Origin: Pigoraptor vietnamica | Lineage: Eukaryota; Opisthokonta; Filasterea | Assembly (NCBI GenBank): GCA_943704525.1 | Contig: CALSCQ010003051.1 | Coordinates: 1 to 32,362 of the forward strand | Direction of reading: 5' to 3' | DNA length: 32,362 bases | In this document: positions 6,649 through 31,600 of the stretch, piece by piece | Layout: the number at the start of each line of letters is the position of its first letter | Numbering within the stretch: position 1 is the first letter of the stretch | Translations under genes and position numbers: made by a program | Notes under the pieces: model-generated | Databases searched by the model: none | Told to the model about the DNA's origin: nothing | Seen by the model: only the letters and a program-made list of their open reading frames with translations

Positions 6649-8131
6649 ATGAGCAACTCGACAGACACTTCGACGACTGCCATTGGCGTGGATGCGTTTT
6701 TGGTTACGCTTGCGATCAACGGCGTAATTTGTGTTGTTGCACTCGTCGTTTTTGAATTGTTGAGGCATCGAATTCCCGGCATATACGAGTCCAGGCGCCG
6801 CTTTGTCTCGCCGTCGAAGCGTTTTCCGGAGGGGTCGCGCGTTCCGTTCTCGTGGTTGCACGAGGCGCTGGTCACTCCCATCGACGTTGTGTTCGAGAGG
6901 TGGGGTTGCTTTGCGCGCGTTGCATGCGTGTGTGACGATGACAGACGTGCGTCTGAGGAGCAATGACGCACACTGCACGTGACCGACCCAAGTATTTATT
7001 GCTTTGCTGACGGCGATCTTTCTTTCTCTTTGGCAGGTGCGGCTTGGACGCGGCTTGCATAGTGCTGGCCAACTTCACGGCGCTCAAGATATGCGTGCTC
7101 GTGCTCGGCTACGCGCTCGTCGTTCTCATTCCGGTCAATTATTACGGCGGGTTGGGACTCGACGGGTTCGCGCGGATCGCCCTCTCCAACGTCGACGAGG
7201 GGTCGTCGCTGCTGTGGGCGCATTTCGTGTCGGCGTATCTCTTCACGGGAATTACCCTTGCAGTGCTGTGGCGGTCGCACGCGCGCTTCGTGCGACTGCG
7301 ACAGCAGCACCTCTGCGCGACCAAGTGCCCTTCGGTGCGGAGCGTGCTCGTCCTCGATCTTCCCCGCTCTCTCGCGACGAGCGGTCGCCTCTTCGCGTAC
7401 TTTGACCGCCTCTTTCCCGGCGCCGTCGAGTCGTCGTGGGTGTCCCTGCCGCTGCACAGGCTCTCCAGGAACGTCGAGCGCCACGGGGCCGCCGAAAGGT
7501 CCCTTCACCGAGCCCGGGCCGTTAGGAAGCTCCAACCGGACGACGCACCGCCCCCCTCGCGTCGCAAGTGGCATATCTGCGGGCCGAGCGAACCAGTGAT
7601 ACCACCACTGTGCGAAGAGGTCAACAGGCGCGCCGAGAAGGTCCGCGTGTTGAGAGAGAGCTACAGGGAGCTCGACGTCAACGACATTGACGACGGCGAC
7701 GGCCGCGACGGAGACAGCGAGTGCTCGCAAGATTCGCGTTCGTCGCGGGAGCTTAAGCATCACCGCTCTGGTTTCGTCACGTTTCGCACGCGTCGCGCGG
7801 CAGCCGTGGCAGCGCAGTGCGTCCTCACCTCGCGCCCCTTCTCAATGCTCGCCGAGCCCGCGGCGGCGCCGTCGGCAGTGCTGTGGGACAATGTGCCTCT
7901 GGTGAAGGCGGAGCGGTCGGCGCGCGCAGTCATCTTCTTTGCCGCATTTGTGGCGCTCGTGCTGTTTTGGACGATCCCGGTGGCGTTTGTTGCGTCGCTC
8001 ACCACGCTCGAGGCGCTGTCTGCCCGGCTCCCTTTCCTGGAGCCAATCGTGGACGCTTCACCGGCACTCAAGGGATTCTTGCAGGTGCGGTGATGCTGCC
8101 GGTGCGCAATTGTGGTGGTGGTGGGGGTGTT

Positions 8132-8198
<67 letters not shown>

Positions 8199-9632
8199 GG
8201 GATGTGGGGAGTACGTAGGCGCATCGGAGTCGCCATGTTTCGTTTCGCACGACTCGTTCTGACGTTGCACCCCCCTCGTTACACCCCCCTTCGTTCCTAT
8301 GCTCTTCGCCTGCAGGGTTTTCTGCCGACCCTCGCGTACATTGTCTTTTACGCGCTGCTTCCGACCATTCTGTTGGCCATGTCGCGTGCGGAGGGCGCGC
8401 GCTCCCTGCCCCAACTCGAAAAGATGCTCGCCAACAAGATGTTCGTGTTCTCCCTCGTCAACGGCTTCCTCGCGCTCAGCATCTCCGGCGCGGTCTTCGA
8501 ACAGATCGACGACATCGTGTCCAAGCCCACGTCCATCCCCTCGCTCCTCGCAAAGTCCATCCCCGTACAGGCCACCTTCTTCATCAATCTCGTCATGACG
8601 CGAGCCCTCGGCGGCCTCTCGCTCTCCCTACTGCGAATCGGCCCGCTGGTGGTCACGTGGCTCAAGCTCAAGTGGCTCGCGAAGACGCCCAGGGAGCGAT
8701 TCGAGGCGAAGCATCCGGGGCCCTTCGGCATCGGCCTGGCGTACGCCGACGTTTTGTTCGTGTTTGCCGTGACCGTGTGCTATTCGACGATGAGTCCCAT
8801 CATTCTCGTCTTCGCCGTGACCTACTTCACCCTCTCGCTCGCCGTCACCAAGCGTCACGTTATGCGCGTGAACGTTCCGGACCACGAAGGCGGCGGCGTG
8901 GCGTTCCCCTCCTTCCTCGGGGGTATGTCCGTCGGACTCGTCGTCTATCAGCTTACGCTGACGGGCATTTTTGCGATCAAGCGCGCGCCCATACAGGCGG
9001 CGCTGACCCTCGCGTTGCCTGTCATTACGTACGCGGCCGTGCTGCAGTGGCGCTCTGCGTTTGGGCGCGCCTCCGTGCACGTGGCACTCGAGCGCACGAA
9101 GCTGCCCGGCGACTCCGCGGGTGCAGACAGCGCAGGCTCCTTTCCCTCGTACCTTCCAGGTCGCTTTGACGGCACGCAGGGCGGCGAGTGGGAAGGGGAG
9201 TGCACGTCGTCGGGCTGCGGTGAAGACGCGACGCCGGGCGCCGTTTCTCCGTACGTCCATCCTGCGCTCGTGGTCAAGGTGAGCCCGGCCGCTGACGATG
9301 ACAGCGACGTCGGTCCGGATCCCGAGGCGGAATTGGCGCGCGCATTCTCGGACGACGTGCATTCTGAAGGCGAGGAGGGACCGTCGCGTCAGCGGGGCTC
9401 CAATGTCGGAGCGCCGGCACAGGTGGTCGCGCAGTCGCTTCCTGTGCCTATCGCGGACAAGAGAGCGGGCGACTACATGGTTCCCGATGCGCGGTCATCG
9501 TCGATCCCGAACGCGAGCACTGGCGACGAAGACTCGGATGATGAGAGCCGCGTTGGGCGGACGACGCGCGTGTTGACGGCCGACGACGACAAGGCCGCCG
9601 ACTGCGTGGTCGAGTTTGAGATTGAGGAGTGA
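6649..9632 (+). CDS. OSCA/TMEM63 (CSC1-like, DUF221) mechanosensitive cation channel
   Basis: Three exons: 6649-6899, 7037-8084 and 8316-9632 (871 aa). The start ATG follows GCAAAA. The first exon gives an N-terminal membrane helix (about residues 14-38) and the family's first loop. The junction makes FERCGLDAACIVLANFTALK, a typical OSCA motif. Residues about 170-365 form the charged cytosolic insert, ending in AVLWDNVPLVKAERSAR, the family's W-x-N block before the pore region. The C-terminal multi-pass block follows (for example FLPTLAYIVFYALLPTILL, SLVNGFLALSISGAVFEQI, FFINLVMTRALGGLSLSLLR, TMSPIILVFAVTYF). Known relatives are membrane-tension-gated, Ca2+-permeable channels. After the last helix there is an unusually long Ser/Asp/Glu-rich tail (about residues 700-871), perhaps regulatory. 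Subcellular membrane cannot be told from sequence. Confidence 0.92.
8136..8196. repeat. (TG)n microsatellite in channel intron 2
   Basis: About 60 bp TG run, preceded by a GGTGGTGG stretch, inside the intron 8085-8315 of the OSCA-like gene. Confidence 0.97.
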
Positions 9633-11386: not shown

Positions 11387-14300
11387 ATGGCGTCTCAGCG
11401 GGTGTTTCTCCGCTTGTGCGTCCTTGCCCTCCTCGCTCTCTCGGCGCTGCCCCTTCGCGCGTCGGCCGATGATGCCGTTCCCGGTGACGAGGTGTGGGAT
11501 TTCGATTACGACGACGAGGCTCGCCGTGAACTTGAGCGCCGCTTCGACAACAACTTCATCGCGTCGACGGCGCATCCCACCGCGACGCCTTCTATTTCGC
11601 CCAAGGCCACCAAGACGGCGCATCCCACGTCCACGAGCGTTCCCACGAGCGTGCGTTGCTTCCGGTCCGGCCTGAACATCACCGGCCAGGCTGCGGAGGA
11701 ATTCATCAAAAAGTGCACGTCGTACAACGAGCCGCCGTACTTTCTCGTGCCCAACGCGACCCTGCCGTCGATCTACGAGGACATTCCCGACATCTTCAAC
11801 GACGGTGTCACGGTGGCCTCCCTCGGCGCGCTCGCGGTGGACGACGTCGACGTCCTGTACGTCCTCGATTCGGGCACCATCCTCGGCGTCCCCACGCTCT
11901 TCAAGATGCTTGACCTCGCCCTCCAGAGCTTCGCGTTCGATTGGTCCACGTACTCGACGGGGCTGAACGGCATGAACGGCACGGCGGCGGATCTCATCGC
12001 CAACGCGGTGGAGGGGGCCCTCGAGGCCACCGAGACGGCGTCGGACGACTCGATCAAGGAGGCTGTCGTGTTTGCGATCGAGCACCTCGCCGAGATTGCC
12101 TTCACCACGCTTCCTAAGAGTGGCGGCCGCCTGCAGGCGACCAACTCGACGATCAGCAAGTACCGCGACATCGTGGAGGGCGAGCTCATGGGCCCGTGGA
12201 CGAAGGTCCGCCTCGTCCCCGCGGCCAACTTCAACGGCCGCGCCGAGTTCACCGTCCTCGCGCACGACCGCAACCCGATCATCCGCGTGCAGAACGGCTC
12301 GTCCTTCTTTTCGCCCAACTCGCTCAAGGTCTACTGGCCCGTCACCCCCGTCAACGACCGCCCCGTCGTCGACACGACCAAGTTCGACCCGAGCAAGGAC
12401 GTCGTCTTGGCACCGGCCAACCCGTTCGCCTCGACCGCCGAGGTGGCCTCGATCTTCCTCCGCAACCTCACGCAGTTCGGCACCGACGTGGACGGTGACA
12501 CGCTGGGCATTGCTGTCATCGCCGTCGACGACGCACATGGCGCGTGGATGTACCAGAACCTCTTTCCCACGCCGGGCGACTGGATTGTGCTCAGCTCGCA
12601 GCTCATCTCCACGCGCTCTGCCGTGCTGCTCTCGGAGACCGTGCGCATCCGCTTCGTCCCGGAGGCTAGCTATCTCGGCAATGCCACCCTCACCTACCGC
12701 CTGTGGGACAAGACCCAGGGGACGGCCTTCTCCACGTTCGACGTCGCCGTGCACACGGCCCCGTCCGACTCTGTGAACCGCCGCGACATCACGGTCGTCT
12801 CGCGCCGCAAGGGTTGCGACGGCGTCGTCGACTCGCGCGCTGCCAACGACGCCTGCGGCACGTGCAAGGGCGATGGCTCTACTTGCCCCGGCTGCGACAG
12901 TGTCATGGGTTCGAACAAGAAGGTCGACCAGTGCGGGCAGTGCGGGGGCGACGGGACGTCGTGCCTCGGCTGCGACAAGCGCCCCAACTCCGGGCTCGTC
13001 TTCGACAGCTGCAACCAGTGCGGCCGCAACAACGCCGACAAGGACTGCAACGGCGACTGCTTCGGCGGGGCGTCCGTCGACTCGTGCGGCATCTGCGCGG
13101 GCGGCAAGACGGGTCGCATTCCCAACGCTTCGAAGGACTGCTTCGGCACCTGCGGCGGCACGGCCGTCATCGATGCGTGCGGCGACTGCACGATGGGGCT
13201 CACGGGTCACGCGTACAACTACCGCATGGACTGCAACAACAAGTGCGGCGGCAACGCCGTTGTGGACCGCTGCGGCATCTGCACGTCCGTCACCGACGAG
13301 TCGAAGAAGAAGTACATCGACTGCGCCAGCAAGTGCTTCGGCAAGGCCTTCCGCGATGGGTGCAACGATTGCGTCGGTGGCACCACCGGACTTGTGGCGA
13401 ACCACAACAAGGACGTGTGCGGCGTCTGCGGCGGCAACGGCCAGTCCTGCCTCGGCTGCGACGGCGTCCCGAACTCCGGCAAGAAGAAGGATCGCTGCGA
13501 CCAGTGCGGTGGCGACAACAGCGGGTGCACGGCGACGACGACCGTCTCCCCCGACGTCGTTCCGTCGACCACGGGCTATATTGTGGACGTCTACGGTGCC
13601 GGCTTCGTTGCCACAGGCGGCGCAGTCAACAACCGCTGCGAGATCCGCACGTCGGCCGATGTTCTCGTCGCCTCGAGCACCGCGTCGACCTTCGTCGATA
13701 ACGGCCACGTCAAGTGCACGCTTCCCGACAACATCCCCGCCGGCATCAATTACCGCGCCTACGTTCTCTATGACGGCGCGTCCAAGACTGCTACCTTTGC
13801 CACGTTCAGCGTCTACGACACGAATGCCGTGACCGCCATCGCCGCGACGTCCGATCTCACGACCGCGACGCCTGCCGTTACGCTCACCGCCAACACCGTG
13901 ACGGACAACATCGCCTTGCTCAAGTGCGTTGTTGTCAACACGGAGGGAACCCTCCCCGCGACCGTCCCTGCCGATGCCGTCATCGTGTCTGCGACGCGCG
14001 CAAGCGCGACGACGGCGACGTGCATGCTTCCCGCCGTCACCAGCTCGCGCAAGGTCACCGTCTCGCTCACGTACAACGGCATCGACCTCATTCCGTCTAC
14101 GGCAAAGTTTACGTACCAGGCGGCGGCGCCCACGATCGTGTCGGCGCGCTTCCAAAACAGCGGCAACGGCGCGACGCTCACGTTCTCCGGTCCCATTCGG
14201 TTCCCCGTCAGTGCCAACTGCGCGAGCATTCTCGACGCGACGACGCGCAGCCTCCTCGGTGTTGGTCCCGCGTGCAAGACACAGTCGGCGAGCGTGATTA

Positions 14301-17300
14301 ACGTCGTCTACGGCGCCAACGCGACCGTCGCGGTCGGTGCCACCTTCACGCTCGCTTCCGAGAGCATCCAGGCTCTTGACGAGAAGTACGCGCTCTACTC
14401 GTCCGGCAGCACCACGCTCCTTGGCCCGCTCAACCCCAACACGCCCGTCGTGCGCCTCACGCTCCCATCGGTCACCGGTATCTGCGACAGCCTCACAGTC
14501 CGCTACACGATCGTGTCTGGCAGCGCAGGACGTGCGCTTACGCTCGAGTGGGTCGTCCAGGCCAACGACGGCAGCGACACTTCGGCCATCGTGACGGCGC
14601 TCACCAACTCCGCTTCGAAGGGCGTCGCGTTCGTTGACAAGTCGCTGCTCACCTTCGGCATTGAGTACGCGGTGATCCTTCGCGCGACGAACATCTTCGG
14701 CAGGGCGGGCGTTGCGCAGGGCACGTTCACGACGTCGAACCTCCCCATCCCGACGGTGATCATCGACGGTCTCTCGACGCAGACCATCTACCGCTACAAG
14801 CACAACCAGTTCACGGCCACTGCGCGCCTCCCAGGCTGCATCACGACCACGGGTGGCCGCATCGAGTACGAGTGGACGGTTAGCAGCGACTCGTCAATCT
14901 CCCTCGGCAACGAGGTCCGCCGCAACGTCCTCCACGTGGACCCGTTCACGTTCGTCGCCGACCGGACGTACACGCTCAGCGTCGTCGCAACGATCCGCGG
15001 CCTTGGCGATCCCGCGAGTGGCTCTGCCTCCGTGACCGTCAACGTCCTCTCGTCCCCGCTCACGTCGTGGATTGTCGGTGGTGAGACCAAGCAGATCCCC
15101 GCCAGCAAGGCCCTTCGCGTCAGTGCCAACTGCGCCGATCAGGACAACGCCGGCGACTGCGCCTCGCGCGCCACCTTCCTGTGGACGTGCGCCCTCCTCG
15201 ACGACGACAAGGTCACCGAGCTGCCGTGCACGACGGACGCCGGCGACGAGCTCTTCTCCGTCGCCAACGGCATCAACCCCAAGGCGCGTAACCTCGACGT
15301 CCCCGCCAACTCGCTCCAGAGCGACTCGACGTACATCTTCCGCATTGTCTCGACGGTCGGCACGCGCACGACGACCGCCACGAGCACGGTACACGTGCTC
15401 TCGAAGGAGCCACCGAAGGTCACGATCATCAGCCAGCCCGTTGACCGTGTTGCTTCCAACAAGAAGCTCCGCATGCGTGTTGCTGTCACCTCGGACACCG
15501 ACTACACGATCGCGTGGACGAGCGTGTCGAGCGGCGGCAGCGCTGTCGTCGATCTGACCGCCGCGGGCGCCGTCTGCAACGAGAACGGTGCTCTTGACGC
15601 CGAGACGCTGTGCATCAGTGAGAACACGCTCGACGACGGTGCCACGTACACTTTCCGCGCGACGGCGACCAACACGGACGGCAGCACGTTCGCCGAGATC
15701 ACGGTCGTGACGGCGGCGGCACCCTCGGCCGGTTACCTCGTCATCACGCCCGACTCGGGAACGGCCATGGAGACCCTCTTCACCGTCTCGTCCGTCAACT
15801 GGATCGGCGAAACCGATCTCCGCTACACGCTCTCCTACGTGTCCAACACGACGTCGGGCGCGGAGCGCTTCCTCACCGACCGCCGTGCCAACTCGGATTC
15901 GGACCTGTACCTCCCCCTCGGTGACGCTGACGACGGCTACAAGCTCAAGGTGTGGGTGACGGTTACGGACGCGAACGGGGCCTCGGGACGCGCCTCGTAC
16001 ACCGTCGTCGTGAGCCCGCCCACGGGCGCGACGGGCACGGCCGCGGACTTCAAGACGTTCGCCAACACGTACCTCAGCGGCAGCTCGCAGGCATTGCTGG
16101 ACGCCGGACTCCTCTCCGATTTCATCAGCGCGCTCGACTCGATCGTTGAGGCGCTCCACGCGCGCACGGGCGATGCCGCGTGCGAGGCGGACGTCGTCGA
16201 GGTGCTCGTCGCCATCACGTCGAGGGTCGCGACCCTCATGGAGATCGCGCCGCTCACCGACGAGAACATCCACCGCATCATCGCGATTCTCAGCAAGATG
16301 ACCAAGAAGTACGGCTCGTGTCTGGACAAGTCCACGCGCGACACGCTGCAGGCTGCCATCAACAAGTCGGTGCTCTCGGCCGTCGCGGGCGACCAGGGCG
16401 CGAGCGGCTACCTCGAGGACCAGCCGGCGCAGGACGCCATTGACGCCAGCGAGCGCATCTCGTCCAACACGACCACAGACTACGTCGACGTCCTCCGGCA
16501 GGTCGGCCGCGCGTACTCGAACAGCGCAGGACCCAACGAGGGTGCCAAGACGATCGTTTCCGAGTCTGGCGGCACGACTGTGATGGTGGAAGGCCACTCG
16601 TACGACCCGAACACCGCGCCGGCCAACTCCACGTTCCGCGGCGCGTGCGCTCAGTCCGGAAACACGACCGAGTGCGCGACGGTGATCTTCCCCAAGGACG
16701 CGCTCGACGCGATCGCCAAGAACGTCACCGACGCGAGCTGCGATCCCGACGAGGAGGACTGCGACGCCAAGCTCAACCAGCTGTACATCGACATGCAGTC
16801 GAATCCCGTCGGCAACTCCGGCACCGCGAAGAACTTCCAGCAGACCGCGACCGCCGAGTTCTCGTTCGTCAACTCTCGGACGGGCGAGTTCGTCCCGGTC
16901 AACAACCTCCCGTCGCCGTTCGATGTGGCCCTCATCCGGCGTGGCTCGAAGCAGGGAACGACCAAGGTCCCCACGCGCGTCGTGTGCCAGTACTTCGACA
17001 CAATCAAGAAGAAGTGGATCAGCGCGGGCCTCACCGCCAGGGTCAAGGGCACCAAGCAGGTGTTCTGCAGGACGTACCACGCCACGCTCTTCGGCGCTGT
17101 CGAGAGCAACGACACGAGCTCCCTGAGCCCGCCGGCCGCTTCGTACACGCGCTTCAGCCCCGCCATCAACAACATCGACGAGGGCGGCTCCTTCAGCGCG
17201 CGCGTCTCGGCGACCGTCGGCGCCAACAACGTCTCCCAGCAGTGCTGCGGCATCGTCTGGCAGGTCAACAACGGCTCGAGCTCCACCGGCTGGATCAACA

Positions 17301-20300
17301 TTGACCAGTCCGTGTTCGCGAGCGTGGCGACCGTGACGCCGAACAACCTCGGAACCACGTTCATCGCGACGAGCACGCTCTCGTTCAAGGAGGTGTATTC
17401 GACGTTCCAGCTCTACCGCTTCCGCGCCGTTGTTACGGACGAGATCGCCCTCAAGACGGAGATGACCCCGTTCAAGCTGACGATCGCCTCGGACAGGTTC
17501 GCCATGCTGCAGGCGTCGCAGGCCAACGTGCTCGCCGCCAAGGCCGTCAAGGAGTACTGGACGGCGCCTGACAAGGACTACCCTGCGTTCGAGCGCACGA
17601 TGTTCCGCGTCGCGGACAACACGGCCGCAAACCGCATGTTCCTTGCGGTCACGCGCAACATCGCCGAGCAGACGATCAACGTCGACGCCACGTCCGTCGT
17701 GGGCCCCGACAGCGCCTTTGACGTCATCTCGGAGTATGTCGTCGTTTCCTTCGACACGCGCCCGATCGACCAGGAGCCCTTCGAGACGGACTTCGCGACC
17801 GCCGTGAGCGCCGCGATGAAGACAGCCTACCCCACCGGCGTGTTCGTCACGCACATCGTTTCGAGCTTCCCCGACTCTGGCGTCGGCATCGACGTCCAGT
17901 TCTACGTGCGCGACTACACCACGGGCAAGGCCGTACCCAAGGCAACCGTCGCCGCCGTCGTTGCGGCTGGCGATGCGAACTGCGGCATGTTCGCTGCGTA
18001 CCCGACGACCCTCGGCGCGTACTGCAACATCGTCGTCGCCACGAAGAGCGTCTTGACCGTCTACGCGCCCGAGAACCACTACCTCGTGAGCCTCGGCGAT
18101 GACCCGTACACGCCTGGCGTCAAGCGCTCGGCCATCTCTTCGGACAGCTTCCACTGGACCCTCGAAAAGGTCGACGGCATGAACGGCCTGACCTACAACG
18201 AGACGGCGCCCTTCAGCAGCAGCCAGCGCTACTTCCTCCGCAACGTCGTCGGCGGCTACCTCGCGATTACCTTCGGCGGCGAGTCGCCCGTGTTCTCGTT
18301 CGTCTCGACCAACGCGACGGCCACCATGTTCGCCATGAGCACGCAGCTCACGTACTACATCACGGACCGCGTCAAGGGCTCGTCGGGCGCGTCTTCCAAC
18401 GCCTGGACGTCGGTTCGCTGCTCCGACTACTCCCCCAACCCGGAGAACACGGAGGCCCAGAACGTCGTCGACTGCGTGTTCGCCGAGGACAACCCGACGT
18501 ACCGCCGCCTCGAGTTCGACCTCGGCGGCGACTTCGGCGTCCTCAACGTCATCTTCTACCTCGGCACGTTCCCCTTCCCCATCCAGGGTGAGTTTGACAT
18601 CAACGACGCGACGCGCCCGTTCAACGCCTCCAAGTCGGCGTACACGCGCCTCGAAGTGTGGGCGCGCAGCGAGGGCTCGACAACGTGGTACGACTTCACG
18701 GACGGCGCGAGCTCTGCGACGCTGTCGTGCGGTGCCAACGCGGCCACGCGCCAGACGTTCTGCAGTGTCTCGTATGACGTCATGCGCATCATGCGCAACA
18801 ACTACAAGCTGCTGGGCAACACGGGCTTCCGTTACATCCGCGTGATCTTCGGCGAGATGTCCGTGTTCACGACGTCGCTCTTCTCGAAGGACCGCTACTA
18901 CAGCGTGCAGGAGGTCGAGATCCAGGGCAACTGCATCTGCAACGGCCACTCCAAGTCGTGCGCGATCACCAACGGTGCGTGCTACGACACGATCGCGACG
19001 ACGGGCCAGCCTTCCCCCATCCTCAACTGCCAGCACAACACGATGGGAACGCACTGCACGACGTGCACGAACGGGTTCTACAACAACCCCGCCAACACGG
19101 TCCCCCGCAACGCGTTCAACTGCGACCTCAGCGACAAGACGGCCCTCCGCACGTGCGACGGCCCGTACCTGCCCGACATGACCCCTCCCGAAATCGAGGC
19201 GCGCCGCTTCCAGTACCTCGGCCGCACGAACATCATCGCGTCGACGGCCATCGGGATGTTCAACTACACGTGGCCCTTCGGCGGGCCTTGCATCGCTTGC
19301 CAGTGCTACGGCCACTCGGCGTACGACCAGGGCGCCGACACGGAGCGCGCGTGCAACATCAACTCGGGAGTGTGCGACTGCCTGACGGAGTCCCGCAACG
19401 TCACGGGCGATCACTGCGAGATGTGCGTCCCCGGCTACTGCCGCATGTGCAACGCCACGGTGGGCTCCGGCAACACCACGACGGTGACGAACTGCCGCAC
19501 GAACACGTGCGACCTGTGCGACTGCAACCAGCACTCGCTGTACACGACCACCGGCGGCCTCGACCTCTGCAACGCCGATGGCTGCGCGTGCACGTGCAAC
19601 CCCTCGCACAACGTCACGGGCGCGAACTGCGAGTCCTGCAAGGTGGGCTACTTCAGCGCGACGGGCGACGCCGTGGACGGCACAAAGTGCTACGGGTGCG
19701 AGTGCCACGGCCACAAGTCCTCCTTCAACAACCAGTGCTCGAAGCTCGGCGGCGACTGCAACGAGGCGTACGACGGCACCCCGCAGCCGTGCGAGGGCAA
19801 CACCGAGGGCACCCACTGCGAATATTGCAAGCCGGGCTTCTACCGCCCGCTTAAGGACGGCAAGATCGACCTCTGGGACGACTGCGTCCCGTGCGACTGC
19901 AACGGTCACGGCAACGCGAAGGCGTGGGCCGGTCTTCTCGGCGGCACCGGCGGCGGCAAGACGTCGGTCTGCGATCCCGACGGCGGCGTGTGCAACTGCA
20001 AGGCGGCGGACAACGTCGAGGGCGACAACTGCGAGAAGTGCAAGCACGGCTACTGGAACGCGCAGGGCGACGGCACGAGCGGCGCCACGTGCGCGGCGTG
20101 CCAGTGCAACAGCCACAAGACGGGCAGCAGCAACGAGTGCGAGGCCAAGGGCGGCGATTGCCGGAACGACTTTGACGGCAACAGCCAGCCGTGCGAGGAC
20201 AACACCGACGGTCACAACTGCGAGCTCTGCCTCGGCGGCTTCTACCGCGCCTGCCACGAGCGCGCCGGCATCCCCGGCACCCCCTGCACGACGGCGCTCA

Positions 20301-23300
20301 CCGACGGGTGCATTGCGTGCACTTGCAACGGCCACCAGACGGCGAACGTGACGAGGGACGGGACGACGTACCCCACCTGCAACGCCGTGGGCGGCGCGTG
20401 CACGTGCACGGCGGCGTCCAACTCGGAGAACTACTTCTGCCAGGACTGCAAGCCCAACACGTGGAACGACGTCGGCGACGCTCAGAACGGGCGCGACTGC
20501 AAGCCGTGCGAGTGCTACGGCCACTCGTCGACTTGCAGCAACTTGGGCGTGTGCAGCGCTTGCGCGGACAACACCGAGAACGGCGCGAAGCAGAGGTGCG
20601 ACAAGTGCGTCGTCAACACGAAGCGCGCGAACATCGCCTCGTACAGCGACCCGACGAGCATCTCGGTCCAGGAACAGATGCGCCTCGAGTCTTGCGTGGC
20701 GTGCACGTGCAACACGCACGAGAACGTCCCCGGCGGCACGACGCGCTGCGACGAGTTCACGGGCAACTGCATCTCGTGCAAGGACAACACCCAGAACGGC
20801 GCGAACGGCGAGTGCGAGGAGTGCACGGACGGCCACTTCCGCGGCCTCACGGGTCACTACGTGGCCGCGAGCGACACGTGCCGCGTGTGCGACCTCACGG
20901 GTGGCACCGCCTGCGCCGTGCACACGCTGACGGACGGGTGCCTCGACTGCAACGCGCAGTGCTACGGGCCGAACAAGGGCTGCGACAAGAACACTGGCGA
21001 GTGCACCGACTGCGCTTCGTCCAACGCCGAGGGCTTCCGCTGCGAGCGCTGCAAGGCCGGCTACTTCGGCGACCCCGTGCGCGGCATCCCGTGCCAGCCG
21101 TGCCTCTGCTACCACTCGGAGGCGACGAACTGGGCCGGATACCCCTCGACGATCTTCAACAGCCACGACTACTGCGCCCTCCAGAACAACATCGCCAGCG
21201 CGCGAGAGTGCGTCCTCGACGAGACGCTCCTCACGGCCGCGCTCATCGCGCAGATCACGGGCGGCGCGCCAGAGAAGGCGTACGACGCGATCCGCTGCAA
21301 CTGCCCCAAGGACACGACCATCCCGTCCGGCTACTTTGGCCTGGCGAACGGCACAAAGTACGACGGGCACCAGTGCAGCACGTGCAAGTCGGCCATCTAC
21401 TACGGCCAGCCCACCAAGTGCAAGACGCCCGGCGCCGGCGGCGTCACGACGCTCTCGGTCAACGGGTGCGCCGCGTTCGAGGAGTGCAAGGTGTGCACGT
21501 GCTACGGCAACATTGACGAGACGTTCCTCTTTGAGGAGAACTGCAAGGCGGACGCCGACGGCAGCCTCAACTGCCCCGGATGCCTCGGCCACACGGCCGG
21601 CAAGCAGTGCGAGAAGTGCGAGGACGGATACTACGGCGTCGCGACGCGCCTCGACACGAACGGCGTGATCGGCACGGGCTTCGTGCTAGCCGCCAACGGG
21701 ACGTCGCTCAAGTGCCGCAAGTGCGACTGCAACGGCCAGGCGCTCGACCGCATCCCCGCCACCGCCGGCATCGCGGGCGACATGTGTGAGACGATCGATG
21801 ACGGACAATGGGGCCAGTTTAAGTGCCGGTGCAACACGGCGGCCGGCTACACGGGTCCCAAGTGCCGCCAGTGCCTGCGCGGCTACCAGCTTCGCAAGGG
21901 CTTCAACGACCAGGGCGTCGCCGACCCCGACTACGATTGGTGCGAGCGTGAGTATCCCAGACGCCGAGCGCGACCTGTGCGCCCTAGAGCGGTGTGTTTG
22001 CGCGATGTTTTCTAACGCGAATGGCTTACGCATCCTTCCCCCTCTTCCCGTCCGCAGCTTGCCCGACGTGCGTGCTCAACGTCTACCACGACGCGCTGGA
22101 GCCGCTCGAGGCCACTTTTGCCGAGCTGAAGGACACGGTGGACTATCTCAACGCGACGGTCAACGCCGACACGGACGCCATCGACACCGCGTACAACGCC
22201 CTTCTGGACCAGCAGACACACTTCGACGCCACGGACAAGCCCGCGATTCTCCAGGCGATCTCCACTATGCAGACCAACAAGAACAACGACATGGACATCC
22301 TCTCGCACAAGTTCGACACCCAGTCGACCAACGTCGGCACGCTGGAATCGGCCGTTACCTCGAGGACGACTTCGGTCGGCACGCTCGAGACGGACACGGC
22401 GGCGGACCTGTCCGCGCGCGGCGTGGCCCTGGATAACCTCGCGACGACGTACGGCAACCTCGACACGCAGACGCAGGCGACCCTCGACGCCGTCACCGCG
22501 GCCTCAAACGAGCTGACGACCCGCCGCGATTTGATCAACGGCCAGATTTCGGACACGCGCGACAACATGGACGACATCAGCGACGCCCTCCCCGGTTTCG
22601 CTGCACTTGGGCCGGACGCGCGCGACAAGGTCGACGCCGCCATTGAGGACCTTGCCCAGCGCAACGCCAACGTGCTGAACCCCATTCTCGAGGAGAAGAT
22701 GAAGGTGATCGTGGACGGTCTCGCGTACATCACGCAGCTCCAGGCCGACCTGGAGGCGCGCCTCGACGCCGGGCTCACGGGCCAGGAGAAGGCGTACACG
22801 GACGGCAAGACCGACCTCGTGAACCGTCTGAACCTGCAGAAGGCCGCGCTCGACGCCCTCGAGCTTCAGCTCGCCAACATCGGGACGATTCTCGACGACG
22901 CCAGCGGCTTCGACATCCAGACCGAGTTTAACACGCAGTCGCCCTCCATCATCGCCGGGCTCACGACGGCCCTCACGACCGCGCTCGCGAACCGCAACGC
23001 GTTTGTGGCGCGTCTGAGCACCGCCTTCGACGAGTTCCTCTCGGACGTCCGCGCCTTCCGCACGCGCGCCGAGAACCTTCAGGTCGCCGCCGCGTACCCC
23101 TCGCTCAACACGGCGACGACGGGCACGCCGCTCATGATCGCCAGCGAGGCCAGCAACTCGACGCTCGCGTGCGGCCTCGGCGGCTTCAACTCTGCCATCA
23201 ACTTCAACGGCACGGGCGCGATCAAGATCGACGCGGAGGACTTCCCCGATATCGCTGACGGCGTGACGGTGGCCGGTTGGGTCCGCCAGGTGCCCGGCAA

Positions 23301-24273
23301 CAGCGGCTACTTCTTCTCGCGCTCTGACGCCACCGGCGATCTCCGTTACTACTCGGTGTGGCTCGATGGCCAGCACGACCGCATCACGTTCTTCTACACG
23401 GTCGATCCCGAGGCTGACACGCACACGACGGTCAACGTCAACCTCAAGGCCCCTCTGGACGACAACACGTGGCACCACGTCGCCGTCATCTTCCTCCCTT
23501 CGAACACGGGACGCGTCCTCATCTACGTCGACGGCGTGCGCATCGCGGACATTAACTGCCGCGGCGAGTTCGCTGCCGACCCCGACTCCCCGATCTACTT
23601 CGGTGGTCGCGCGCCCCTCAACGTCTTCTTCTTCCAGGGGCGCATGGAGTCACTCGCCGTGTACCCGACGGCGCTGCCCGGCAGCATCCTCGCGCTCCTC
23701 GTCGCCAACAAGCCCTCGGCGCCCGCGGGTGCCATGACCGTGAACGCCCTCCCTAACTTGATGGCGTTCGGCGGCAGCGACGTCGTGCAGATCACGGCCG
23801 ACCGCCTCTTCACGAAGGCGCCGCTGGGCCTCACCATCTCGGGAGAGATCCTCCAGAACAACAACAACGAGGGGTACATTGCCTCGCGCACGGACTCGAC
23901 GGGTGCGACGCGCTACTACGGCTTGATGGCGGATGGCAAGCGCGACCTCCTCACGCTCTACTACCTCCCGGCGCCGCTCATCTCGGGCTACAAGTCAATC
24001 TCGGTGCCCTTCCGCCCTGACGACGGCAAGTGGCACCAGGTCGCCGTCATCATCAACGGCCGCACTGCGATCTTCTGGGCCGACGGCGCGACCATCGGGA
24101 CCGTGCAGCTCGAGGGAGTGCTCAGGGACACGCAGACGACGACGACGCTTGAGGTCGGTATGCGCAAGCCGGGTTCGTTCGGCTTCGCTGGGCAGATGCG
24201 GAACGTGTTCATCGCGAACACAGCAGTGTGTCCCGAGACCATTGCCGCCTCTCGCCAGTCGCCCATGTCGTGA
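11387..24273 (+). CDS. Giant secreted laminin-like protein (Cys-rich, REJ, GPS-like, LN-like, laminin-EGF, rod, LamG)
   Basis: Two exons, 11387-21947 and 22058-24273, encode 4258 aa. The junction (donor GTGAGT, acceptor CCGCAG, phase 1) creates WCEPCPTCVLNVYHD. Residues 1-29 are a signal peptide (FLRLCVLALLALSALPL). Then come: a cadherin/CSPG-like stretch with TPVNDRPVV near 322; Cys repeats 477-714 of the VDxCGxCxGDG type; an IPT/TIG-like region about 716-805; a REJ-like region about 1020-1545 (LTLPSVTGICDSL, later FTVSSVNWIGETDLRYTLSY); a helical/GAIN-like stretch ending in a GPS-like motif 1867-1906 (C1867, C1894, H1898, T1900); a laminin N-terminal-like region about 2330-2516 (FDLGGDFGV ... 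VEIQGNCICNGHSKSC); many laminin-type EGF repeats to about 3520; a helical rod about 3526-3864; and two LamG-like domains, about 3900-4064 and 4084-4243. No membrane helix follows, so it should be extracellular, as matrix or cell coat. The LN-like and GPS-like calls are the least certain parts. Confidence 0.9.
18370..18940 (+). other. Laminin N-terminal (LN)-like region of the giant protein
   Basis: Residues about 2330-2520. The string FDLGGDFGVLNVIFYL, then LEVWARSEGSTTWYDF, then a Tyr-rich YYSVQEVEIQGNCICNGHSK matches the order of an LN domain (beta strand after DLG, an S-x-x-G-x-T-W-type turn, and the exit into the first EGF-like repeat CxCNGH). The pattern is degenerate, so this could be a generic galactose-binding-like sandwich that enters EGF repeats. 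Confidence 0.55.
18930..21947 (+). other. Laminin-type EGF (LE) array of the giant protein
   Basis: Residues about 2516-3521 have LE signatures throughout: CxCNGH-type starts, CxHNTxGxHC cores and C-x-x-C-x-x-G-(Y/F)-(Y/F/W) ends, for example CQHNTMGTHCTTCTNGFY, CEGNTEGTHCEYCKPGFY and CADNTENGAKQRCDKC. I estimate ten or more repeats, several with irregular insertions, ending at PCPTCV immediately before the rod, as in laminin chains. Confidence 0.88.
21948..22057 (+). other. Single intron of the giant gene (110 bp)
   Basis: Donor GTGAGT and acceptor TCCGCAG, phase 1. It falls exactly between the last EGF repeat and the rod. If unspliced, the upstream frame continues for 22 codons and stops at 22013-22015. 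Confidence 0.9.
23180..24240 (+). other. Two C-terminal LamG/concanavalin-like domains
   Basis: Each domain has the jelly-roll pattern. The first reads INFNGTGAIKI, VTVAGWVRQ, DDNTWHHVAVIF, VLIYVDGVRI and IYFGGRAP. The second reads LTISGEILQ, DDGKWHQVAVIING, AIFWADG and LEVGMRKPG. The W-H-x-V-A-V-I core is shared. They resemble the LamG-like jelly-roll (LamGL/pentraxin-like) class more than classical laminin LG repeats. Confidence 0.8.
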
Positions 24274-24722
24274 GACTGAGGGCGCGACCTCGCCATTCGC
24301 TTCACGTTACGCGCGTTTTCCACATTTCGTCTTTTGTGTTTTGTGTCTCACATCTTTCGCGTGAGTGATTAAGCGCCATCCAGTGTGCGTGTGGTCTGTG
24401 TGTGTGTCCTTTGGTGTGTGTTCCTCCCCGCCCTTGACGGGAACGGCATAAAGAACCGCTCACGCGACAAAAAAAGACAACACAGCAACAACAATAGTCG
24501 AAGTCTAAGAGATGTAACGACTGTAACAGACCGATCAGTGCCACAACCCTCAACGCCGGATACAAAACCGACAGAGATGCAAAAACGCAAAACCTCTTCA
24601 CACGAGAGCAAAGTCGCTCACGTTCTCTTTCGAGTGCACCGCTCTTCCCCTCTCGCTTCTGCACTTGTTTTCGACTTACATAGGGGACACGTCTTCGACT
24701 TACAGAGGAGACGCACACGAAA
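24274..24722. promoter_or_regulatory. Spacer between the giant gene and the acyltransferase
   Basis: This holds the 3' UTR of the giant gene and the promoter of the acyltransferase. TG-rich sequence lies at 24385-24420 and an A-rich stretch follows near 24470-24500. A 24 bp imperfect tandem repeat precedes the acyltransferase ATG. No gene is visible. Confidence 0.5.
24671..24718 (+). repeat. 24 bp imperfect tandem duplication
   Basis: Two units starting TCGACTTACA at 24671 and 24695, followed by TAGGGGACAC and GAGGAGACGC respectively. It lies a few bases upstream of the acyltransferase ATG, so within its 5' UTR or core promoter. Confidence 0.75.
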
Positions 24723-26634
<1,912 letters not shown>

Positions 26635-28667: not shown

Positions 28668-31600
28668 ATGGCGTGCAAGCGGGATGCGGGCGCGGTAGCC
28701 GGCGATGGACCCTCCACAACAACACCCACGCTCGAGAGAAAGAAGCGGCGGACGACGTCCGAGTGCGCTGAGCTGGCGGATTGGAGCCCCTCGTCGTGGC
28801 GCGCGAGGCCCATCAAGCAGCAGCCGACGTATAAGGACGAAGCGAAGCTGAAGGAGTCGCTCGACACACTGCGCGGTCTGCCGCCCCTCGTGTCCAGCGG
28901 AGAGGTGCGCTTTTTTTGCGTCCTCTGTCACAGTTACTGTTGTTGTTGTGATTTGGGAGTGTGTCAGCTCACTGTACTTTCTGTGCCTTTTCAACCTCAT
29001 GGGATCTGATACTCCACTGCACGTGCTGGCCTCCACACTCCCTCATCGGTTGTGTTTGTGCTTGCACTCAAGCCGTTCCTGTGTTTCTCTCTTCAGATCG
29101 ACGATCTCCGGAGTCAGCTGGCCGAAGTGGCGGATGGCAAGCGCTTCCTACTCCAGGGCGGCGACTGCGCCGAGCTGTTTTCGTACTGCAGCAAGAAGCC
29201 GATTGAGAACAAGCTGAAAATTCTGCTCCAGATGAGCCTCGTTCTCACGTGGGGCGCGCGTACGCCCATTGTCCGCGTGGCTCGCATGGCCGGACAGGTG
29301 CGTTGTGGGTGGCTGTTGTTATGGACGTGGAGGAGGAGGGGCTTATTGCGAGTAAGTCTCAGTCCTTCTTATGGGCAGTTTGGAGGGATCGTAGTCTCTC
29401 TGTTTGTAACGGCCGCAATTTCGTTTTCAGTATGGCAAGCCACGCACAAAAGACACCGAGATGGTCGACGGAGTGGAGGTGCTCTCGTACAGGTGCGTGC
29501 GCGAAGTGCCGTTGTGTGCGTCCGTCGCGTTCACGTTGAAGAGAAGAGACGAAGCTTTTTTATTTTGAGGAAGACAAAGCATATGAAGCATTTCCCTCTG
29601 CTGAACTGGGGCAATACTCTCAGGGGCGACAATGTGAACGGATTCGACAAGAACGACCGCGAGCACGATCCCAGCCGGCTCGTCCAGTGAGTGCTCATCT
29701 ATTGTCGGCCTGTTGCGCGGCTGCGGCGTCACCTTACGTTTCCACACTGCAATGGGGATTGCGTGTTGTACACATGTGTGGACTCATATATTGTGTCATC
29801 GCAGGGCGTACTTCCACTCGGCCGCCACGCTCAACTACGTGCGCGCTCTGCTGGCCGGTACGTCGGCCGTGGCTTGCTCCGTGTTCTTGCGACAGCTGGT
29901 TTTTTTTTTTTTTTTCGTCTTCGTACGCTTCACACGTTCATACGCGGCACATTCCTTCCGTACGCTAGGTGGCTTTGCTGACCTGCAGCACCCCGAGAAT
30001 TGGGCGCTGAAGAACGTCCGCTGCCTTGCCACGCGGCGCGTGTACGAGGACATGGTCAACTCGATGCTCGATTCGCTCCACTTCATGAAGACAATCAAGG
30101 TGCGCGCACGTAATTTGTGTTGTTCACTGCGATGTCATGCAAGCACTTATGTGTTCGTGCGTGGCTGTACCATTCTTCACCGCCCTTGTGTGTTCTTGCG
30201 TGTGGTTGTGCGTTCCTCAAGGTCCTGTGTTCTTGCGCGAGTGCGTTCCTCAAGCGTGCTTATGTGTTGGCGTGGCTGACGCAATGCCCGCCGTCGTGCA
30301 ATTGCAGGCGTCGGAGAGCCGCGGCCTTCAGTCGGTCGACCTCTACACGTCGCACGAGGGGCTCATCCTCAACTACGAGGAGTCGCTGACGCAGCGCGTG
30401 CAGGACAGATGGTACAACGTCGGCGCTCACTTTCTGTGGATCGGCGACAGGACGCGCCAGGTGGGAAGGGTACACTGGGAAACCTCCCTCATTGCTTGTG
30501 CGTGCGCTGCATGTTGAGTTACGCAGGCCTTCTGAATTTTACGTGATGTGTAAACCTTTGTATCACTTGTGCTTTGCGATGGACGGCGCATGTTGAGTTA
30601 CACAGTCCGCTGTAAACCTCTTTATCACTTTTGTTTTGCGCTGAACGGCCGCATGTTAATTGCCGCCCGCTGTTTTTCCATGGATGTGGATTTGGGACAA
30701 GGGAGGCCTCCTTCATAACTTGCGTGAAATGCATGTTCTGCCGTGGGTTGTGTTTTACCCTACGTGGAACTATTTTCCTTGCCGGTGTGCGTGCGCACTC
30801 AGTCCCCTGTTCGATTCTTCGTATCGACAGCTCGACCATGCCCACGTCGAGTACTTTCGCGGCCTCCACAACCCCGTCGGCGTGAAAGTGGGGCCGTCCA
30901 CTGACCCCGCAGAGCTTGTCGAGCTGATCCGGCGGCTGGACCCCCTCCGATTGCCCGGAAAGATCACAATCATCACGCGCTACGGCGTGGGAAAGGTAAT
31001 CTACCTCGTGCCGTAACGCTGTTCGTAGCGCTGTCGCTCGTTGGCTCTCTGCGTGATGTTGGCGCGCGCGATGCTCGCGTGCTTCTCGCCTAGTATAACG
31101 CGCTGCTGTGGTGCCGTCTATATACTGCAACCATATTTGTTGCCGGTGTTGACGAAAATTACGATATTCCCGCGCAGGTGGACGAGTGTCTTCCCAAGCA
31201 CATCCGGGCCGTGACGGAGGCGGGTCTCAAGGTCGTCTGGTGCTGCGACCCCATGCACGGCAACACGGAGACAACTTCGACGGGCATGAAGACGCGCAAC
31301 TTTGACAAGATCCTCGAGGTTTGTTCGAGCCATGTAACCCTCTCCTCAGATGTTCGTCTGCGTTGCAATACTGTAATGGCCGAACGTCTGTAGTTACTTC
31401 AGTGCGCTTATTATGGCCGAAAGTCTGAAACTTTGTATCCGCTCTTTTCGTCCGTTTAGGAACTCCGCCGAACGTTCGCGATCCACAAGATGCACGGTCG
31501 ACAGCTGAACGGCGTCCACTTTGAGCTGACGGGCGATCCCGTAACCGAGTGCACCGGCGGCAGCAGCGACCTCAGTGAGGCCGACCTCGCGCAGAACTAC

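Follow-up and report, generated by a model that had tools for sequence, protein, structure and literature searches.

Laminin-alpha-like genes of a probable filasterean form a family, and two of them carry a polycystin-like head

The 32,362-nucleotide stretch of DNA analysed here (contig CALSCQ010003051.1, positions 1 to 32,362, called the window) carries at 11387-24273, on the forward strand, a gene of two exons whose 4258-residue product ends at a single terminal stop. Laminin is a matrix protein found under animal tissues and polycystin is a kidney-disease protein; the first-pass annotation of this gene proposed that a chain in laminin-alpha-like order stands behind a REJ-containing half. 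Our analysis supports this order, with the limits that the LN domain is recognised through profile comparison, that the GPS-like motif reads H-A-T and that there are two LamG domains. It also places the gene in a real multi-gene laminin-alpha-like family of a probable filasterean, of which two members have a polycystin-like head. The assembly searched for relatives comprises 32.5 Mb in 1395 contigs; the window derives from contig C1265, and paralogous loci are named below by contig. The features of the gene are the following.

11387..21947, forward strand: exon 1, an uninterrupted open frame (residues 1-3520 plus one base)
11387..11470, forward strand: predicted signal peptide (residues 1-28; hydrophobic N-terminus, cleavage site placed by eye)
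12374..12766, forward strand: cadherin-like or bacterial-Ig-like domain (residues 330-460; Pfam slice scan)
12815..13531, forward strand: cysteine-rich VDxCGxC repeats (residues 477-715; plain in the sequence)
13532..14416, forward strand: IPT/TIG region (residues 716-1010; TIG at 26.6 bits against a cut-off of 20.9, Pfam slice scan)
14855..16081, forward strand: REJ domain (residues 1157-1565; Pfam REJ)
16082..17101, forward strand: presumed GAIN-like region with a GPS-like motif at its end (motif CRTYHATLFGAV at residue 1894)
17138..17485, forward strand: presumed Ig-like domain (residues 1918-2033; by eye, similar stretch in paralogues)
17486..18376, forward strand: conserved region before the LN-like domain (residues 2034-2330; aligned across nine sequences)
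18392..18931, forward strand: LN-like domain (residues 2336-2515; hhalign to nine LN sequences, and a profile of LN plus first LE repeat against PDB)
18932..21943, forward strand: laminin-EGF (LE) array (residues 2516-3519; Pfam above cut-off, netrin and laminin PDB chains)
21948..22057, forward strand: spliceosomal intron GTGAGT...CCGCAG (110 bp, GT-AG)
22058..24273, forward strand: exon 2 with the stop, open frame
22060..23166, forward strand: CxxC and heptad-bearing helical rod (residues 3522-3890; heptad test z 3.3)
23167..23721, forward strand: LamG-like domain 1 (residues 3891-4075; Pfam Laminin_G_3/Laminin_G_2)
23722..24270, forward strand: LamG-like domain 2 (residues 4076-4258; Pfam Laminin_G_3/Laminin_G_2)

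The splice joins WCE to PCPTCV. The 110-bp intron is supported without RNA because the genomic DNA of two paralogues (C1306 and C47) carries the joined junction, DYCEPCPQCV, uninterrupted by any intron. A common intron position across the family was considered and rejected, the position being apparently the same in the window gene and C222 and not in C1306 or C47. The product is predicted to be secreted, with a signal peptide and no clear membrane helix, since among 19-residue Kyte-Doolittle windows the best value (2.0) falls at the N-terminus and none exceeds 1.7 elsewhere in the product. An antisense open frame at 14894-21592 (minus strand, 2232 residues) gave no Pfam match at E ≤ 0.01 and is probably a by-product of GC-rich codon usage.

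In the C-terminal half, the long laminin-EGF array ending in PCPTCV that had been read from the sequence is borne out by Pfam, with EGF_LMN_ATRN at 2.4e-10 and EGF_laminin at 6e-7, both above cut-off. The array (120 cysteines per 1010 residues) directly follows the LN-like region, and its PDB sequence matches are netrin and laminin chains. The two LamG-like domains are likewise confirmed, by Laminin_G_3 (6e-26) and Laminin_G_2 (1.9e-12), each matching two stretches above cut-off; the count is two and not five as in laminin alpha. For the rod between the array and the LamG pair, a heptad-window test in which six rods were scored against their own shuffles gave z values of 3.3 for the window, 8.2 for C222, 9.2 for C1306 (presumed second exon), 5.6 for C47, 7.4 for C567 and 11.0 for C347, to be compared with 8.0 for a true laminin beta chain and with 0.3, 1.8 and -1.0 for the LE array, REJ and LamG controls, respectively. 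For the helical rod of the first reading, the heptad signal of the window is modest, though above that of shuffles, and the Fourier power of hydrophobicity of the window rod alone has no clear peak at 3.5.

As to the region preceding the array, a nine-sequence profile of the LN-like region together with the first LE repeat (LE1) yielded 24 PDB hits at E ≤ 1. Netrins and laminins make up 22 of them, the best at 4.5e-10, and the remaining two are SDR enzymes (0.4 and 0.61). The printed alignments to netrins and laminins extend from the end of LN into LE1 and are collinear over the junction. To exclude any LE contribution, sequences were also trimmed to end ahead of the first LE cysteine, and hhalign was then run between these and nine reference LN sequences (P0002-P0005 plus five chains from the PDB). 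This LN-only comparison scored 41.7 over 138 columns (probability 80.6%, E 1.3e-5 as a single comparison), and 42.3 (E 1.1e-5) with four LN sequences. Control scores were 18.0 for F5/8C domains (two sequences only), 12.5 for reversed LN, at most 19.0 with a mean of 13.2 for 30 column shuffles, and 21.3 for LN itself against F5/8C. In public protein databases, the exon 1 region of residues 2040-2760 found no match among 7375 candidates, and the LN-LE alignment found at least four among 8000 candidates, three of them named as fish proteins and one metagenomic. On the strength of the profile comparisons, we describe residues 2336-2515 as LN-related, without taking an LN domain as proven.

The REJ fusion is not the only place where the laminin-like part occurs. 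With residues 2280-2530 (the LN-like region plus the start of LE1) as query, nine loci carrying an LN-like region were found on nine contigs, the window included; the eight others (C222, C47, C323, C1306, C567, C131, C347 and C1349) are 26% to 45% identical to the query. Past the array, counts cover the eight loci other than C323, and all eight show by eye a CxxC followed by a rod-like stretch after the last LE repeat. Several Pfam families of coiled-coil type match the rod of C1306, almost all of them short of their cut-offs. LamG is matched by Pfam in six of the eight C-termini (window, C222, C1306, C47, C567 and C131) and is without a Pfam match in those of C347 and C1349, which continue for about 400 further residues past the EGF repeats, unlike animal beta and gamma chains, which end in the coil. 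These last two laminin-like genes, almost identical to each other in the LN tree, are either recent duplicates or two haplotypes. We also noted a rod-like stretch and two LamG domains at C986, which was read past its N-terminal part, and at C18 a 4129-residue open frame with LE repeats and no LN match listed (5000 N among the 20 kb fetched).

Among the nine loci, REJ is restricted to the window gene and C222. In a midpoint-rooted tree of residues 2052-2565 and their counterparts, the two REJ bearers form a moderately supported pair (93/96) surrounded by members that lack REJ, and because REJ occurs in two of nine loci and its bearers nest in this way, the fusion is best read as a derived side branch of the family. 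The genes at C1306, C47, C323 and C567 (the last with an additional region before its Ig-like stretch) do not look like fragments of a REJ gene, because each begins with its own signal-peptide-like stretch. Further REJ places in the genome lie at C596, C529, C1019 and C82, with C596 showing REJ at 1.2e-80 and matching GPS in an equally long frame.

The N-terminal half was scanned with Pfam in two ways, over the whole of exon 1 and over slices of the product. The REJ-like region first proposed matches Pfam REJ at E 3.8e-47, scoring 161 bits where the cut-off is 25 (and at 1.9e-48 in the genome scan). In slices, residues 330-460 match Cadherin_5 (32.1 bits, cut-off 26.5) and Big_9 (28.6 bits, cut-off 23.6), and the TIG match agrees with the IPT-like region of the first-pass annotation; over whole exon 1, Cadherin_5 falls under cut-off at 24.1 and TIG is not listed. 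The cysteine-rich VDxCGxC repeats that had been pointed out are visible in the sequence, though they draw no Pfam family above cut-off in slice scans, and the same null result was obtained for the presumed Ig-like stretch (residues 1918-2033) and for the conserved region of residues 2034-2330. As for the GPS-like motif, CQYFD...W...CRTYHATLF is seen in the sequence but lies below the Pfam GPS threshold in slice scans, whereas its counterpart in C222, CRTKHLSLFGG, reaches the cut-off of 22.5 with 25.6 and 22.5 bits in two scans. The motif thus reads H-A-T in the window and H-L-S in C222. GAIN domains occur in filastereans, according to an excerpt of PMC12716839.

The window gene and C222 are unevenly similar along their length. 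In blocks of 125 residues, their amino acid identity is 0.26-0.51 up to residue 2500, 0.57 and 0.64 over the two blocks that follow and then 0.80-0.98 over residues 2751-3500 (0.89-0.98 over residues 2876-3500); four-fold sites in the high-identity part of the array are 0.68 to 0.96 identical. Near-identical LE arrays (18932-21943 and that of C222) between diverged flanks suggest gene conversion. This near-identity could mislead an assembler, though only within the array, and the two genes concerned are alike in their order.

One gene family, integrin beta, indicates that the host is probably a filasterean holozoan resembling Pigoraptor. Integrin beta genes lie above the family cut-off at C661, C928 and C829, and one lies below it at C373; those of C661 and C928 have EGF-type repeats and MDVTGSM, in which DVTGSM is what we take to be a metal-site-like motif. 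The best of 130 hits (120 listed) for the C661 protein is EukProt Opistho-2@93183, 55% identical at 873 bits, followed by Colp12 at 252 bits, and the best integrin beta is 55-57% identical to its Opistho-2 counterpart. A tree of C661 and C928 with 19 listed hits groups both with Opistho-2 at 100/100. Opistho-2 is a clone of Pigoraptor chileana and Colp-12 one of Syssomonas (in the excerpt of PMC7147346); it is this grouping with Pigoraptor that places the host with holozoans. An apusomonad host, the other group named for a search in the first-pass annotation, is rejected on the wide margin by which the Opistho-2 protein leads the integrin beta hits, while an identity of 55-57% makes P. chileana itself an improbable host. 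For EF-1alpha, whose insertion is an opisthokont marker, the matches examined gave only a first exon, at an apparent contig end. A genome search for the C4 domain of collagen IV gave no match, in a search lacking a positive control.

Around the gene, one exon of the class II DAHP synthase noted earlier, an enzyme of the shikimate pathway, is confirmed (29713-30276, E 3.9e-10). This neighbouring exon speaks, as in the earlier view, against an animal source. Elsewhere in the window, 7044-9632 encodes a CSC1/OSCA-type calcium-dependent channel (RSN1_7TM 5.7e-62, at least two open frames), and 24385-26634 an acyltransferase whose gene is spread over several open frames (Pfam Acyltransferase and Acyltransf_C).

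Compared with an animal laminin alpha chain, the window protein is alike in the order LN-like region, LE array, cysteine pair, putative coiled-coil rod and LamG and in its predicted secretion. It differs in its LN, which Pfam misses, in having no L4/LF and two LamG domains rather than five, in its extra N-terminal domains and in a rod of about 370 residues. Since Laminin_N, L4 and five LG domains were not found by Pfam, we do not file it as a laminin: it is laminin-alpha-like and not a proven laminin. Netrins also have LN followed by LE repeats and are among the best PDB sequence matches, but they have few LE repeats and an NTR domain (seen in P0005) and are not known to have a rod or LamG. 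P0003, a 772-residue metagenome protein, shares LN followed by LE, both above the Pfam cut-off, and differs by a VWA domain in place of rod and LamG. In polycystin-1, REJ is followed by GPS, presumably the same order as the REJ and GPS-like motif of the window protein. Membership of the polycystin-1/REJ family would call for a membrane-spanning C-terminal half with PLAT, whereas the window protein has no clear membrane helix by hydropathy and no PLAT in the Pfam scan, and its GPS-like motif continues into the Ig-like stretch and the laminin-like part, unlike in polycystin-1. TIG is known from fibrocystin and not from polycystin-1. The Capsaspora protein CAOG_07351 is likewise filasterean, likely secreted and LamG-bearing, and it rises with integrins in aggregates, but the excerpt of PMC3870316 names only a LamG domain and a signal peptide for it.

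With moderate confidence, we read the gene as encoding a secreted adhesion protein of a unicellular holozoan, a laminin-alpha-type chain that would share ancestry with animal laminins and to which a polycystin-like ectodomain was added N-terminally in one branch. Several results weigh against this reading. The claim of an LN-like region holds by profile comparison but not by Pfam, as Laminin_N (PF00055) matches neither the window nor any of the nine LN-like sequences (nor the genome, in a scan lacking a positive control). The LN-like subgroups score lower on their own (28.7, E 0.0016; 21.5, E 0.022), hhalign E-values hold for one single comparison, and the alignment leaves out roughly the first third of LN. 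AlphaFold models were too poor to use, with a mean pLDDT of 34.6 from a single sequence and 42.6 with four relatives. A fold search with the latter model gave no hit at E ≤ 0.001; its best hit, netrin-4 at 0.019, is partly circular given the animal LN rows in the alignment, and staphylococcal adhesins and F5/8C domains come close behind. The window rod has the lowest heptad score of the six, Pfam Laminin_I/II and L4/LF were not found in the window scan, and among seven paralogue tails scanned Laminin_II appears in C1349 only, where its 17.6 bits fall short of the cut-off of 33. For C222 and C1306 the exons were joined by eye, a genome search for integrin alpha (PF08441) that lacked a positive control found nothing, and no beta- or gamma-like partner chain is established for this predicted protein.

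Some of these points favour convergence by domain shuffling, in which mobile LE, LamG and coiled-coil elements and a jelly roll of the galactose-binding type would have been put in laminin order independently of animals. LE is widespread in this genome (at least 40 matches), and bacterial galactose-binding domains are described as the nearest structural relatives of LN (PMC6744579, excerpt); the absence of Pfam Laminin_N and L4 and the LamG count of two point the same way. We nevertheless consider it unlikely, if the most serious of the alternatives, as the LN profile scores well above the F5/8C control (of two sequences) and the LN-LE1 junction is collinear with that of netrins and laminins. 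That the product is a monomeric secreted protein of netrin or usherin type, its rod a non-oligomerising spacer, agrees with the weak heptads of the window rod and the netrin chains among the best PDB matches, but it seems improbable in view of the stronger heptads of five paralogue rods, the coiled-coil-type families drawn by C1306 and the CxxC before the rod in all eight genes read there.

A joining of REJ and laminin halves from separate genes or transcripts, through an artefact of assembly or gene model, is very improbable. The near-identical arrays of these predicted genes invite misassembly; yet REJ, the GPS-like motif, the Ig-like stretch, LN and LE lie in one 3520-residue open frame whose REJ-LN join is diverged from that of C222, C222 repeats this order in a frame of its own, a swap within the array exchanges like for like, and C1306, outside the near-identical pair, shows the order from array to LamG. 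We give still less credence to a contaminant contig or a gene acquired from an animal. Pigoraptor assemblies derive from mixed cultures (PMC9492541, excerpt), which would bear on the present one if it is among them, but nine related loci lie on nine contigs, GC3 is 0.91-0.95 in the laminin-like genes (0.92 in the window) and 0.93 in the integrin gene, the LN appears too diverged for a recent transfer, and the DAHP synthase exon adjoins.

Returning to the laminin-alpha-type chain, its product would most likely be a secreted, oligomeric and adhesive matrix protein. Once secreted, as signal peptide and hydropathy predict, chains may assemble by way of the CxxC and the heptad rod, giving oligomers linked by disulphides, with trimers the most likely form. 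By analogy with animal laminin, the LE array would act as a stiff arm presenting the LN-like tip, which may bind other tips or ligands, and the two LamG domains at the far end may bind the cell surface through glycans or through integrins, for which beta genes are present in the genome. In the REJ-bearing copies, GPS may be cut, with the REJ half staying as a non-covalent head; such cleavage would be more likely in C222 (H-L-S) than in the window copy. The role could then be adhesion between cells, to substrate or to prey. Two reports, seen as excerpts, are relevant here: a likely secreted LamG protein and the integrin adhesome rise together in aggregating Capsaspora (PMC3870316), and Pigoraptor adheres to prey and tends toward aggregates (PMC7147346).

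Published views on the age of laminin, as given in excerpts of the papers cited here, are divided between an animal-specific origin, one near the animal ancestor and a presence in unicellular holozoans. Laminin gamma is counted among core animal-specific families (PMC6040629), choanoflagellates and Capsaspora are said to lack counterparts of animal-type matrix proteins, laminin among them (PMC6526912), and no laminin-containing genes are reported for the ichthyosporean Creolimax (PMC4739763). The origin of Laminin_N is placed at Choanozoa (PMC6792448), and laminin subunits are dated to just before animals, with none in Dictyostelium (PMC9453864; PMC5395295 disagrees). Laminin in unicellular holozoans is mentioned by PMC9381480, choanoflagellates with laminin architecture and other unicellular species with laminin-related genes by PMC5395295, and some basal lamina elements in few unicellular holozoans by PMC8061703; the main text of the Pigoraptor genomes paper, as excerpted, does not mention laminin (PMC9492541). 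Further related work is found in PMC5560861 and PMC4224354. No description of a REJ-GPS-laminin join was found in the literature, as judged by titles and the starts of abstracts and with subscription journals mostly not covered, in agreement with the earlier statement that no protein with this whole order was known.

To conclude, we tentatively propose, at somewhat less than even confidence, that the laminin-type chain (LN, LE array, CxxC, coiled coil and LamG) predates animals, that the family and integrins were present in the ancestor of filastereans and animals and had an adhesive role in single cells before any basement membrane existed, and that one branch gained a polycystin-like head from which GPS may free the laminin-like part. 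The apparent presence of a family in laminin order in a unicellular relative of animals suggests a possible origin of such chains before animals. The sequence, domain order and oligomer of such a chain could be tested in a single-celled organism, and chains of full order, encoded by a filasterean-like genome that also has integrins, would supply the debate on the origin of laminins with concrete, testable proteins.

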